Virus record (IMG/VR): IMGVR_UViG_3300027801_000038
Span: 1-49,469 of that record
Origin: a virus
DNA: 49,469 nucleotides
Strand: one strand, 5' to 3'
The notes beneath the pieces were generated by a model. That model ran no database searches and was not told the DNA's origin. It worked only from the letters and a program-made list of their open reading frames with translations. This document shows, piece by piece, positions 9,640 through 14,802 of this stretch. The stretch's first letter is position 1, and every line of letters starts with the position of its first letter. Position numbers and translations under genes: made by a program.

Positions 9640-11613
9640 TTAATTTGCGTATTGCAATGTATGGTCTTGGTCAGTGGTAACTTGGTGGCCAATAACTGTT
9701 TGACCCCCAGTCACAATTGAAGAATTATCAGCAATTGATGAGGTATTAATGTTGTTCATATTCAATTCTTTTCTTTCTCTTGCATCTTCGGTAGCGTTTG
9801 CTAAATCATCTCCACCACTAACAGTTTCTTTCACTGCTTTCCAACCTTTGCTTAAGTTAGTTTCAACTTCAATGGAATTGTCCATTAGCGCTTGGTCAAT
9901 AACTGCTTGAGAGTTCTCACCCCCTACAACGGCTTCCCCTAAGTCAGTAGCCATGTCATCACCTGCTTTACCACCTAGAAGACCACCTACAATTGCACCA
10001 CCAACTCCACCAAGGAAACCACCTATTGCAGTTCCTATGCCGGGCCCGAAGAAAGAACCAATAAATGCACCAGCTTTAGCACCAGCGGCTCCACCTGCGA
10101 GGGCCCCTGCGAACGCACCAGTAGCTTTACCAGTTGAACCCACTAAATTAGCTTCATGAGCAGTTTCGAGTTTTTCAAATTCATCATCAGACATGTCTCT
10201 CATCTCACCATCGGCACCTTTAATTTTGAGTGTTCCTGCTTCTCTTTGTTTCTTAAGTGCTTCAAACTTAGACATTTGTTCATCTACGTCAACGGCACCT
10301 TCTACAACTGCACCGATGATCGGTAACTTTTTAACTATAGCACCTAAACCTTTTTTAAGACCACTCCACATTCCACCTGATTTAGCAACTTCTTTAACAA
10401 CATCATCACCGGCTTTTAAACCTTGTCCTTGTCCTTTAAATCGTTTGTCGGGTGTGCCATCTGCTTTTAATTTGACACCTTTAGGCACTTTGTCCATCTT
10501 CGGTTTTGGTGGGAAGAGTTTAGAAAATCTATTTTGTAACCCTTTCCAACCTTTAGCAACCATGTCAGCGCCTGACTGAATAACTTTACCAGCACCCTCA
10601 ATAGCCTTCTTTACTGCGGTAGCTGCACCAGTAAATGCGCCTGCCTCAAACGCAGCCAAAATCAGACCAATTGCGGCCCCAATTGCTATAATGGGTAATA
10701 AAATACCAGCAGATATCAAGAGCAATGAAGTAGTGATACCCAACAATAAGAAGCCAAGTCTTTTCGATATCTTCTCTAGTGTTCCAGTATTATCCTCTTG
10801 TTGATCTATGCCATCCTGCTGACCTTCCAATCGTTCCTCATCCATTTCTAAACTTTTATTCATGAAACCACCCAACTTTTTAATTGGGGTAGCAAGAAAA
10901 CCAACCACATCCTTAGCTGCTGACCATTGTTTTGTAATTGCATCTAGGGGCGCAGCGATATCAACGAGACCACCAGTCATGGTTTTTATACCAGCAGTGA
11001 ATTTATCAAACCCATCACTGTTGTTGGCCTCTTCCATCTGTTTGAGTTTCTCATCGTTTATTTCTTTGGCAGCTAACTGATATTTTTCTGATTCCTTTTC
11101 TTCAATCTCAATTCTTTTATCTACACTAGATAGAATTTGTTCTTCTGTTTTTTTTCTTTTATCTTGTAACTCTTCAATAGATTTCATCTGATTATTAAGA
11201 GCTGCCCCCTGAAGCTTCGCACTCACTTCAATTTTATCAGCAATTTTTTTATCGAGCTCACCAAGTTTATTAGTCGATTTAAGTGCAGTTTCAAGTCTGT
11301 CTGTTCTTTCTTGTTCCAAGGTCTCTCGTATTTTGAGGGAGTCCTTAACAGCTTGATTAACTTTTATGAACTCAGAGTCGTTTTTAAATTTCTCTTGAAC
11401 TTTTAGAGATTTACGAGCAGCTAGTGCAGACGCGAATGTATCAGAAGAGTTGTTAGCGATGTCAGCTGCAGCTTTAGCCACATCAACATTGATATCTTTT
11501 AAGTTATTAATAACACCTTTAAATGCAGAAGGAAGCTTGGCACTAACCTTGGTTAATTCCTTAGTGTTCTTTAATATCTCTTTATTTTGATCTGCTACTG
11601 AGTCCTTGGCCAT
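9640..11613 (-). CDS. 29: Tail tape-measure protein candidate
   Basis: 657 residues, against 590 for T4 gp29. Residues 1-225 are charged coiled coil (KVSAKLPSAFKGVINNLKDI, EELQDKRKKTEEQILSS). A long hydrophobic segment near residues 285-330 follows (LGFLLLGITTSLLLISAGIL). A second Gly/Ala-rich membrane-like segment lies near 500-560 (AFAGALAGGAAGAKAGAF). Coiled coil plus hydrophobic, Gly-rich stretches is the usual make-up of tape measures. It comes after the gp26/gp51-like chaperone pair, the classical chaperone-then-tape-measure order. The gp29 name is by role and position; no clear sequence match was recognised. Confidence 0.6.
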   Translation of the reverse strand: MAKDSVADQNKEILKNTKELTKVSAKLPSAFKGVINNLKDINVDVAKAAADIANNSSDTFASALAARKSLKVQEKFKNDSEFIKVNQAVKDSLKIRETLEQERTDRLETALKSTNKLGELDKKIADKIEVSAKLQGAALNNQMKSIEELQDKRKKTEEQILSSVDKRIEIEEKESEKYQLAAKEINDEKLKQMEEANNSDGFDKFTAGIKTMTGGLVDIAAPLDAITKQWSAAKDVVGFLATPIKKLGGFMNKSLEMDEERLEGQQDGIDQQEDNTGTLEKISKRLGFLLLGITTSLLLISAGILLPIIAIGAAIGLILAAFEAGAFTGAATAVKKAIEGAGKVIQSGADMVAKGWKGLQNRFSKLFPPKPKMDKVPKGVKLKADGTPDKRFKGQGQGLKAGDDVVKEVAKSGGMWSGLKKGLGAIVKKLPIIGAVVEGAVDVDEQMSKFEALKKQREAGTLKIKGADGEMRDMSDDEFEKLETAHEANLVGSTGKATGAFAGALAGGAAGAKAGAFIGSFFGPGIGTAIGGFLGGVGGAIVGGLLGGKAGDDMATDLGEAVVGGENSQAVIDQALMDNSIEVETNLSKGWKAVKETVSGGDDLANATEDARERKELNMNNINTSSIADNSSIVTGGQTVIGHQVTTDQDHTLQYAN

Positions 11614-11625
11614 TTATTTTTCTCT

Positions 11626-12009
11626 TTATTTTCCGAATGCTTTTCCAGCTTCTGATATACCGAATGCACCTAGTGTAACTACAACAAATGATGTGTAGAT
11701 AGTTTCAGATACTTTCAAGTCCATATCAAATGCTAATGCTGTAACTAAATCTGTTATTCCAAACACGACCATCAATGCAAATGAAGTGAATCCTATGATT
11801 GCTTTTTCATTAACATCGTTATCATCTAAGAACAACATTCCAAATGTTCTCTTAGGTGGTTCAAGTTGATTTCGTGCTTTAACAGCATCTTCCTTCATCT
11901 CCTTGATTCGATCTTCTTGGTCATCGAGTTTTTCGATAAGTGCCATGTACTTATCTAAATCTATTTCAACTTCATTGCCACCCGATTTCTTATCGTCATC
12001 GTCGCTCAT
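11626..12009 (-). CDS. Two-helix membrane protein in the tail operon
   Basis: 127 residues with a strong AGAGGAAT ribosome-binding site. An acidic N-terminus (DDDDKK) is followed by a coiled-coil stretch (ALIEKLDDQEDRIKEMKEDA). Two hydrophobic helices come near residues 70-92 (AIIGFTSFALMVVFGITDLV) and 104-122 (IYTSFVVVTLGAFGISEAG). The size and two helices would fit a holin. A membrane-associated structural partner of the tape measure is equally possible given the position between chaperone and tape measure. No family recognised. Confidence 0.65.
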   Translation of the reverse strand: MSDDDDKKSGGNEVEIDLDKYMALIEKLDDQEDRIKEMKEDAVKARNQLEPPKRTFGMLFLDDNDVNEKAIIGFTSFALMVVFGITDLVTALAFDMDLKVSETIYTSFVVVTLGAFGISEAGKAFGK

Positions 12010-12086: not shown

Positions 12087-12275
12087 CTACTGGTTACGAG
12101 CTTGTGTTTGTCTATCCTTTTCTTCCTCTAGCCAATTCAGCAACAGAGAAATGTATATCTCTCTTTCCCATGGTATCATACTTTCTAGTTCTGTTAAACT
12201 GTACTTATGATGTTGCATCAATTGAAAGTTAGTTTTATAATAGTTTACTAAACTTTCATGAGAAAGAGATATTAA
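12087..12275 (-). CDS. 51: gp51-like tail chaperone extension reached by -1 frameshift
   Basis: Reading in the -1 frame from the T8 run at the end of gp26 gives 62 sense codons. They begin LISLSHESLVNYYKTNFQLM, continue QHHKYSLTELESMIPWEREI, and end at TAG 12087. The peptide is highly protein-like from its first residue, including the 19 codons before the first ATG (12218). That is expected if it is translated as a fusion to gp26, and not if it starts at ATG 12218. Tail chaperone C-terminal extensions made by frameshift (lambda gpG/gpGT type) have this position and style. The fusion would be 296 residues. Whether a 43-residue product from 12218 is also made is unknown. Confidence 0.65.
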   Translation of the reverse strand, partial: LISLSHESLVNYYKTNFQLMQHHKYSLTELESMIPWEREIYISLLLNWLEEEKDRQTQARNQ

Positions 12276-12976
12276 AAAAAATCTGATAGACCTCTAAGTG
12301 TTGAGGTATTTTTAGTACCACAAACATTACAGTCAAATTCCACCACCTCTTCAATGGTAGGAATTTGTTCGAAGAAGTCATTCAACTTCTCCATCTGATC
12401 TATTGTTAAACTCTCAATGAATTCAACAAGTTCTGCATCCTGAATTTCATCAGCTGTATATACAGTTTCTTCATCATATATACTTTCAATTCCGTATTTT
12501 AACAACTCAACAATTCTATCACTTGTCTCTTTCGAGTCAACCATTGCTAATTGTTTGGTTGATGGATAACGAAGAGTGACACCTAGTGTATCGGATAGTG
12601 CAATTGTTGGGTCAACAACTTGGTCAGAGAATTTAACTTTAACTTCTGATAAATCAACTTCAACTTCTCCTGAACCTACACATCCTGTTTTATTACAGTA
12701 CAATGCTACCTTAGTTGTTTCTCCTATCGACTTTGCTCTAATTTGTAAAAACAAATATTCCAAGTCAAAGATAGGTAGTTTATCCGAATCAACCTTTCCA
12801 TCTGTAACAGCTGTAACTAAACTTTTAACTGCACCAAGAGTTTCCATGTTGTCTTGACTTTCTTTTGCAAGTAGCAAGTACTTTTGTTCTTTCACTAGAA
12901 AAGGTCGAAACTCAACTTCCCTTCCCCCGCTTAATTGACACTTAAACTTAGGTGCCTTTTGGATTGGTAATCCCAT
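12272..12976 (-). CDS. 26: gp26-like baseplate hub assembly/tail chaperone protein
   Basis: 234 residues (T4: 208), with ribosome-binding site GGAGTAA. The N-terminus (GLPIQKAPKFKCQLSGGREV, FRPFLVKEQKYLLLAKES) and the C-terminus (FDCNVCGTKNTSTLRGLSDF) are typical of the T4 gp26 baseplate family. Cys94/Cys99 and Cys216/Cys219 could make one zinc site. The gene ends on a T8 run that can shift ribosomes into a gp51-like frame. In T4, gp26 and gp51 act in assembly of the baseplate hub. The following tape-measure candidate agrees with a tail chaperone role. Confidence 0.8.
   Translation of the reverse strand: MGLPIQKAPKFKCQLSGGREVEFRPFLVKEQKYLLLAKESQDNMETLGAVKSLVTAVTDGKVDSDKLPIFDLEYLFLQIRAKSIGETTKVALYCNKTGCVGSGEVEVDLSEVKVKFSDQVVDPTIALSDTLGVTLRYPSTKQLAMVDSKETSDRIVELLKYGIESIYDEETVYTADEIQDAELVEFIESLTIDQMEKLNDFFEQIPTIEEVVEFDCNVCGTKNTSTLRGLSDFF
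12274..12281 (-). other. Slippery T8 run for -1 frameshift at the end of gp26
   Basis: On the minus strand the gp26 frame ends GAT TTT TTT TAA. The heptamer T TTT TTT (12281-12275) allows both tRNAs to re-pair after a -1 slip. The slip bypasses the stop and enters the gp51-like frame at TTA. No strong downstream pseudoknot is obvious by eye. Confidence 0.6.
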
Positions 12977-14370: not shown

Positions 14371-14802
14371 TCAGGTGAGGTGATCTTCCGTCAATATCCT
14401 GAAAACAAATTTACGATTTTTACAATATTCTTCTGCAGCCTTGAACTTTGCTTGGTTAACAGCATAAGTTGCTACCTCATTTAGGTATCTCTTGGTTTTT
14501 CTTTGGGGTGTTTTGGGGGGTTTACATTGTCTTTTAGGTTTTACTTCAATGATTTCATGGACTGATTTACCCATAGTGTCTACTTTCTTGATATAGAAGT
14601 CAGGAAAGTAACGATGTGTTCGGTTATCTATGGGAGATATGTACGGTATTACGACTTCTTCACTGTTCCATTCAACAATACTGGGGTTCTTATCACAATA
14701 TAACATGAATCTTCTCTCCCACAGAGATCGATAGAAGACCTTTGTGGGGTCTCCTTTGTATTTTTTATAATTCTTTGGTGTAAACCTACCTTTATAAGAC
14801 AT
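14371..14802 (-). CDS. 4: gp4 head completion protein
   Basis: 143 residues, close to T4 gp4 (about 150). The opening SYKGRFTPKNYKKYKGDPTK, then YRSLWERRFMLYCDKNPSIV and HRYFPDFYIK, match the gp4/gp50 family strongly. The WERRFM...D...E segment has the look of the nuclease-like fold of the family, with FPDFYI and EVKPKRQ as the PD...ExK-like residues. It acts at the neck of the filled head before tail joining. First gene of the minus-strand operon, with a late promoter at 14842-14835. Confidence 0.9.
   Translation of the reverse strand: MSYKGRFTPKNYKKYKGDPTKVFYRSLWERRFMLYCDKNPSIVEWNSEEVVIPYISPIDNRTHRYFPDFYIKKVDTMGKSVHEIIEVKPKRQCKPPKTPQRKTKRYLNEVATYAVNQAKFKAAEEYCKNRKFVFRILTEDHLT

Follow-up and report, generated by a model that had tools for sequence, protein, structure and literature searches.

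The gp26-like gene analysed here, in a virus stretch of 49,469 nt (hereafter the window), very probably makes two tail assembly chaperones, a short one and a long one that is reached by a -1 slip on T_TTT_TTT. Judging from the DNA, we put the probability of this reading at about 0.92. At the sequence level it builds on four features: a heptamer, an open and constrained -1 frame behind it, an internal ATG that lacks an SD sequence, and homology to gp26 and gp51 of T4.

How would such a gene work? Most ribosomes would stop at the TAA and release the 234-aa short form. A minority would slip back by one base on T_TTT_TTT, both Phe tRNAs re-pairing, and would go on to make a 296-aa long form with an extra domain of 62 residues that is predicted to be mostly helical. 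Going by gpG and gpGT of phage lambda, the phage would make much of the short form and little of the long one, many short copies coating the tape measure protein and a few long copies bringing in tail tube subunits. Slippage, its rate, its stimulators and the chaperone action are all things that we infer. In lambda, gpG and gpGT are described as binding the tape measure protein, with the T part recruiting the tube subunits (PMC5009743).

A probable slip site at the end of the gp26-like gene

The following features of the window make up the proposed frameshift gene:

12272..12976, minus strand: gp26-like gene; zero-frame product of 234 aa, the predicted short chaperone (TAC-N)
12275..12281 (read as 12281-12275), minus strand: putative slip heptamer T TTT TTT in zero-frame register, with the TAA stop (12274-12272) directly after it
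12087..12275, minus strand: -1 frame extension of 62 codons plus stop (12089-12087); gp51-like, C-terminal part of the predicted long chaperone (TAC-NC)

An earlier note on this DNA had read the 3' end of the gene as GAT TTT TTT TAA on a run of eight T, followed after a -1 slip by a frame open for 62 codons with its first ATG 19 codons in, and the sequence agrees on every point: there are eight T in a row, the -1 reading begins LISLSHESLVNYYKTNFQLMQHHKYS... and runs to the stop at 12089-12087, and the first in-frame ATG lies at 12218. The slip product is predicted to have 234 + 62 = 296 aa, and the peptide spanning the slip would be GLSDFFLISLSHESLVNYYK. An SD-like site, ATATGGAGTAAATT, precedes the gp26 ATG.

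Profile searches place both parts of the predicted long form. Residues 10-234 of gp26 match PF12322 (T4_baseplate) at 1.5e-54, so that a gp26-type domain is present, and the protein matches phrog_150 at 1.2e-58. The proposal that the extension is gp51-like from its first codons also stood, with a match to phrog_634 ('baseplate hub assembly catalyst', gp51) at 4.7e-28 that starts at residue 2. A further match of the extension, at 4.2e-06, is to the gp26 family itself, where it falls on the C-terminal end of phrog_150. A search of NCBIfam gave no useful match.

The structure model of gp26 (mean pLDDT 87.6) had 61 matches at E <= 0.001 in a viral structure library; among the best 50 of these, 33 carried usable names, and 19 of the 33 were baseplate or baseplate hub proteins. 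Against the PDB, Foldseek returned no match for the model at E <= 0.001, a second comparison gave nothing above Z 3.0, and the best hit by sequence (E 0.058) was to unrelated proteins. At the level of these models, the absence of PDB fold matches neither shows nor excludes a fold common with solved tail chaperones. The extension is modelled as three helices at modest confidence (pLDDT 75.1).

The arrangement is conserved among relatives

Among annotated phages, the gp26 query retrieved 1068 records at E <= 1e-5 and a 63-residue extension query 559 records at E <= 0.01. From viral contigs, 103 loci were fetched with gp26 queries (23 + 80), the T run playing no part in their selection, and the extension lies in the -1 frame in 102 of them; the single miss (L060) has T6, and its contig ends within 22 nt of the gp26 stop. 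Together with 80 contigs fetched via the extension itself and with annotated phages, the set came to 201 loci. Both parts are adjacent on one strand in 195, and in all 195 the extension is in the -1 frame. Five of the 201 have no same-strand pair, namely two T4-type loci (L024 and L202), the cut contig L060, and two loci missed by the extension profile (L110 and L116); EC-F2 (L201) was left out of the 195, and of the non-redundant count below, its two hits being two separate genes.

Some contigs among the 201 were fetched twice (L029 and L119, for instance), and 161 non-redundant loci with adjacent parts are free of such duplicates. The earlier note had suggested comparing the T run among relatives: T TTT TT[C/T/A] is kept in zero-frame register in 158 of these 161, the exceptions being Det7, Bue1 and Cygsa01. 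The seventh base is C in 78, T in 65 and A in 15 of the 158, and five further annotated phages (Marzo, X1, ACP17, PX29, Sf-CH8) all read T TTT TTC. Six fixed slip bases and a free seventh are, in these alignments, the pattern that tandem tRNA slippage predicts.

The same counts bear on the possibility that it is not the ribosome but RNA polymerase that slips at the T run, giving a mixed mRNA population. The window does have eight T in a row, and polymerase slippage is described in bacteria on runs of 9 A or T (PMC5009743). However, the seventh base is C or A in 93 of the 158 relatives, which leaves them a run of just six T (in one of the 158 loci, a TTT codon precedes the heptamer), and what is conserved is a zero-frame X_XXY_YYZ register with a free last base, for which a polymerase has no need. 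We consider polymerase slippage highly improbable. The chance that the frameshift reflects a sequencing error or a decayed gene, with the extension as its remnant, is negligible: homopolymers are error-prone, and one pair of phages (IME-SM1 and Marzo) does differ in the T run, but the -1 arrangement is common to 195 loci, 161 of them non-redundant, and the extension shows a purifying codon pattern.

Codon constraint at the slip site and in the extension

Codon, substitution and fold counts were made on 158 loci, with L111, L115, L118 and L201 dropped. These loci are related by descent, so that raw counts overstate their independence and no probability is attached to the codon counts. All 158 loci use TTT for the first slip Phe, compared with 1124 of the 1591 Phe codons at other positions of these genes. 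The preceding codon, which encodes Asp, Ser, Asn and a few others, likewise has T as its last base in every one of the 158; at other sites, the same residues have it in 1478 of 2256 codons. Of the 275 other Phe-Phe or Phe-Leu(TTR) pairs in these genes, only 22 have the sequence T TTT TT. A constraint on the protein may keep a Phe-Phe (or Phe-Leu) ending, but not its codon choice; by these counts, the pairing of heptamer and -1 extension is more than chance.

The part of the extension before the first ATG (12218 in the window), which the earlier note had singled out for alignment, proved conserved and codon-constrained in the -1 frame. Between the slip and the first ATG, substitutions at -1 codon positions 1, 2 and 3 number 534, 401 and 1291 (218 pairs, not independent), and after the first ATG the figures run in the same direction (1048, 243 and 2596). 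The extension ORF is open through the slip site in 158 of 158 loci. Going by its substitutions, the extension upstream of the first internal ATG evolves as -1-frame coding sequence.

Could gp51 nevertheless be a protein of its own, never fused to gp26, whose translation begins at ATG 12218 or by reinitiation once ribosomes have stopped at the end of gp26? This is how the depositors of phage genomes have treated it: a separate ORF over the extension is listed in 11 of 14 heptamer-type records and none is listed in the other 3, and a joined gp26-extension coding sequence appears in none of the 22 phage record tables, in the stretch of each that was opened. In two heptamer-free phages, Cygsa01 and K368, a TAATG overlap would also suit a separate start. 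Against a separate gp51 stand the conservation and -1-frame codon bias of the part before the ATG and the absence of an SD sequence at the internal ATG. An SD-like site at <= -4 kcal/mol precedes 0 of 87 first ATGs at codon 18/19 and about 1% of 70 first ATGs at other codons, compared with 68% of 151 gp26 starts and 12% of 2197 arbitrary positions. The first ATG, moreover, falls anywhere from codon 1 to codon 43 and is absent altogether in one of the 158 loci, and in T4 gp51 the same tail is joined to a gp26-like domain. A homologue whose second protein begins at an internal ATG with its own ribosome-binding site and an unconserved upstream part, which the earlier note had held up as the opposing case, was looked for in the heptamer-bearing set and not found there. 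A separate gp51 is thus very unlikely, and with the fused long form as the preferred reading, gp51 is probably misannotated in the heptamer-type records, both in the 11 of 14 that give it as a separate ORF and in the 3 of 14 that give nothing.

As to individual records, those of Mosig (L107) and Sf-CH8 (L222) place the gp51 start well inside the conserved extension, and that of ACG-2014e (L026) lists no gp51.

Heptamer-free and odd cases

The 22 gp26-bearing phage records divide into 14 with heptamer and -1 extension, 1 with an altered T run (IME-SM1), 4 that are heptamer-free (Det7, Bue1, Cygsa01, K368) and 3 with two genes (T4, 44RR, EC-F2). A -1 extension without the heptamer is kept in Det7, Bue1, Cygsa01 and K368 and in 15 Det7-like contigs (L203-L217), so other routes than the heptamer exist in the wider family.

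In the Ackermannviridae-type loci (L115, L118 and L203-L217), gp26 ends ATT TTC ATT TAA, with no T6 heptamer, and the -1 extension (LIFEIDL...) is conserved ahead of any ATG or GTG. One idea is that a single Phe-tRNA slip on T TTC leads into the -1 frame there. Cygsa01 (L111) and K368 (L116) have their TAATG stop/start overlap before the extension, and termination-reinitiation is therefore possible in these two in place of a slip; a K368-based scan of viral contigs found no relative.

IME-SM1 (L110) was considered as a +1 version of the arrangement and rejected: Marzo (L218), identical to it over the 232 gp26 residues compared, has an ordinary heptamer and a -1 extension. The T run of IME-SM1, which differs from that of Marzo and gives gp26 a different C-terminal end, is probably a sequencing error or a variant.

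Short and long forms in T4 and other two-gene phages

What corresponds to the two products in T4? T4 gp26 (208 aa) and gp51 (249 aa) both match PF12322, and gp51 aligns over residues 3-248 with phrog_150 (2.6e-84) and over residues 147-246 with phrog_634 (1.2e-23). In hhalign, our gp26 alignment matches the N-terminal part of T4 gp51 (E 2.8e-8, probability 95.2) and our extension alignment its residues 200-249 (E 2.6e-5, probability 74.6). On this homology, one protein exists in T4 in two forms, gp26 being the short form and gp51 a long form encoded in one frame; the end of T4 gp26 corresponds to the slip position, and gp51 carries the extension. Whereas the window phage has one gene and a putative slip, T4 has two divergently transcribed genes, with gp51 in one frame, and the 3' end of its gp26, GAG TTC TTT GAG TTA CTA TAA, contains no heptamer. 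EC-F2 (Pseudotevenvirus, L201:2501-3794) carries two tandem ORFs on the same strand, a long gp51-like one and a short gp26-like one, an arrangement that, beside the divergent pair of T4, represents another two-gene solution.

A tree of 28 gp26-type domains, unrooted and with several long branches among the T4-type sequences, separates the six T4-type proteins, short and long, from the slip-type and heptamer-free domains (97/95); the T4-type long forms group at 100/99. Three phages whose records assign them to the Straboviridae, PX29, ZPAH1 and Vibrio 6E35.1a, have the slip site, and loss of the slip via duplication in the T4 branch is therefore the simpler reading; we infer that this branch lost the slip by gene duplication. 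According to a 2016 review, long-tailed phages have a slip in their tail genes and T4 is the exception (PMC5009743). The slip site is now found in T4-like relatives, the three Straboviridae-classed phages among them, and T4 gp26 and gp51 are homologues of the two products, encoded by separate genes.

Homology to T4 gp26 and gp51 fits a tail assembly chaperone pair. Both T4 proteins are listed as hub assembly chaperones, and gp51 is required for assembly and absent from the particle (PMC3004832), which would fit the proposed model; studies cited in the same paper place T4 gp26 in the hub, which fits it less well.

Relation to known frameshift systems

The 2022 article of Vladimirov, Gautam and Davidson (Virology 566:9-15) concerns, as its title has it, a mechanism by which T4-like phages manage without frameshifting; to judge from the papers that cite it, what is meant is the two-gene branch. 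In the words of these citing papers, T4-like phages are known to have poly-T tracts as -1 slip signals in their TAC-N genes (PMC12846349, citing Vladimirov, Gautam and Davidson 2022), and some T4-like phages have one short gene and one fused long gene in place of frameshifting (PMC10885494, citing Vladimirov et al. 2022). By this description, the T4-like TAC-N genes resemble ours in having either the poly-T slip signal or the short and fused long genes. Since both papers credit Vladimirov et al. 2022, this kind of slip-type gene is probably already in print, as is the comparison with T4. The earlier note had pointed to a lambda-type chaperone-frameshift-tape-measure layout in a T4-like phage; its sequence predictions held, and, as far as the citing papers describe it, the layout is not new there.

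Lambda gpG/gpGT has the decoding and layout proposed here, with a short protein, a slip-extended long protein and the tape measure gene next to them. The difference lies in the sequence, gpG having no detectable homology to the gp26 family (hhalign probability 0.2). By analogy, the gp26 slip gene would work like G/GT, but it is no member of the lambda G/GT sequence family. Pakpunavirus phage Adele likewise has a conserved -1 slip, with a GTTTTT motif near the TAC-N end (PMC12846349); it belongs to another phage family and is set beside the gp26 gene by description.

Candidate stimulators of the slip

Two elements flanking the heptamer of the window are candidates:

12291..12295, minus strand: SD-like AGAGG, candidate stimulator 9 nt before the heptamer, proposed from a family-level excess over synonymous nulls
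12223..12258, minus strand: weak candidate stem-loop, beginning 16 nt downstream of the heptamer, with arms at 12258-12247 and 12233-12223

Upstream, SD-like pairing is strongest for 7-mers whose last base lies 9 nt before the heptamer, and it exceeds there the pairing of synonymous versions of the sequence (t -8.8, n=158 loci; t -4.3, n=53 representatives). The 53 representatives were chosen among the 158 heptamer-bearing loci, and therefore say nothing about the frequency of the heptamer. Per locus the effect is modest: pairing lies below the locus's own null mean in 119 of 158 loci and 37 of 53 representatives, and on average 37% of synonymous versions are as strong. In the window alone the excess is not significant, 29.5% of synonymous nulls being as strong. 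A Glu-Gly type dipeptide alone does not explain the excess (129 sites vs 216 controls, Mann-Whitney p 2e-12, on related sequences).

Downstream, the fold was tested in every second locus (79 of 158) and, starting 6 nt after the heptamer, is better than in shuffled sequences (mean z -1.22, compared with -0.09, -0.22 and 0.00 at three control places). In a P-SSM2-like clade, a 12-pair hairpin begins 5 nt after the heptamer, with one pair seen as AU, UA and GC; its 97.9% of cells paired in 16 rows is a biased figure, because the rows were picked by eye for a common hairpin sequence. The hairpin of the window is weak and lies farther from the slip site than usual. Its fold z is -2.44 (60 nt), and those of two relatives, L004 (-0.59) and L032 (-1.11), are not significant. 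Among 15 relatives chosen for their closeness to the window, 80.6% of the cells of this stem are paired, against 29-47% when it is slid, and one pair changes from AU to GC in 5 rows. RNAalifold, run on the window clade, did not choose the stem at 12223-12258 and gave only a 4-pair hairpin. From these patterns, the slip may be stimulated by the SD-like element some 9 nt before the heptamer and, in one clade, by the hairpin after it. The parts of the literature that were searched gave no description of an SD-like element for the gp26 slip gene, which does not by itself establish that it is new.

The -1 cassette of E. coli dnaX combines a heptamer with an SD-like element upstream and a stem-loop downstream. 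The gp26 gene resembles it in the heptamer and, at the level of the family or of a clade, in its candidate SD-like element and stem-loop, and differs in being an unrelated gene with a T run in place of the A run of dnaX. The slip in dnaX yields a shorter product (PMC5009743). It is conceivable, though we would sooner bet against it, that a three-part cassette on the dnaX plan (T_TTT_TTN, preceded at 8-10 nt by an SD-like element and followed in some clades, after 5 nt, by a hairpin) goes back to the common ancestor of the Kyanoviridae and part of the Straboviridae, that duplication replaced the slip in the T4 branch, and that the Ackermannviridae branch took another route to the -1 frame, with neither heptamer nor usual start codon.

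Neighbouring genes

Two ORFs of the window bear on the proposed layout:

11626..12009, minus strand: 127-aa ORF that separates the chaperone gene from the large ORF
9640..11613, minus strand: 657-aa ORF, tape-measure candidate by position, with a weak profile match

The claim that a tape-measure candidate follows one gene later is right as to the order of genes, the 127-aa ORF coming next and the 657-aa ORF after it; the identity of the latter is suggested by its position and by a weak match to phrog_23574 (tape measure, 6.5e-05), which is not its best hit. It has no BLASTP similarity to two positional counterparts. The 127-aa ORF has no family match above noise and, by eye, contains hydrophobic stretches.

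Elsewhere in the neighbourhood, the gene at 13790-14356 matches the DNA end protector family phrog_429 (2.1e-44) and the gene at 14371-14802 the head closure family phrog_218 (1.1e-59). By these matches, both neighbours fit a T4-like morphogenesis block.
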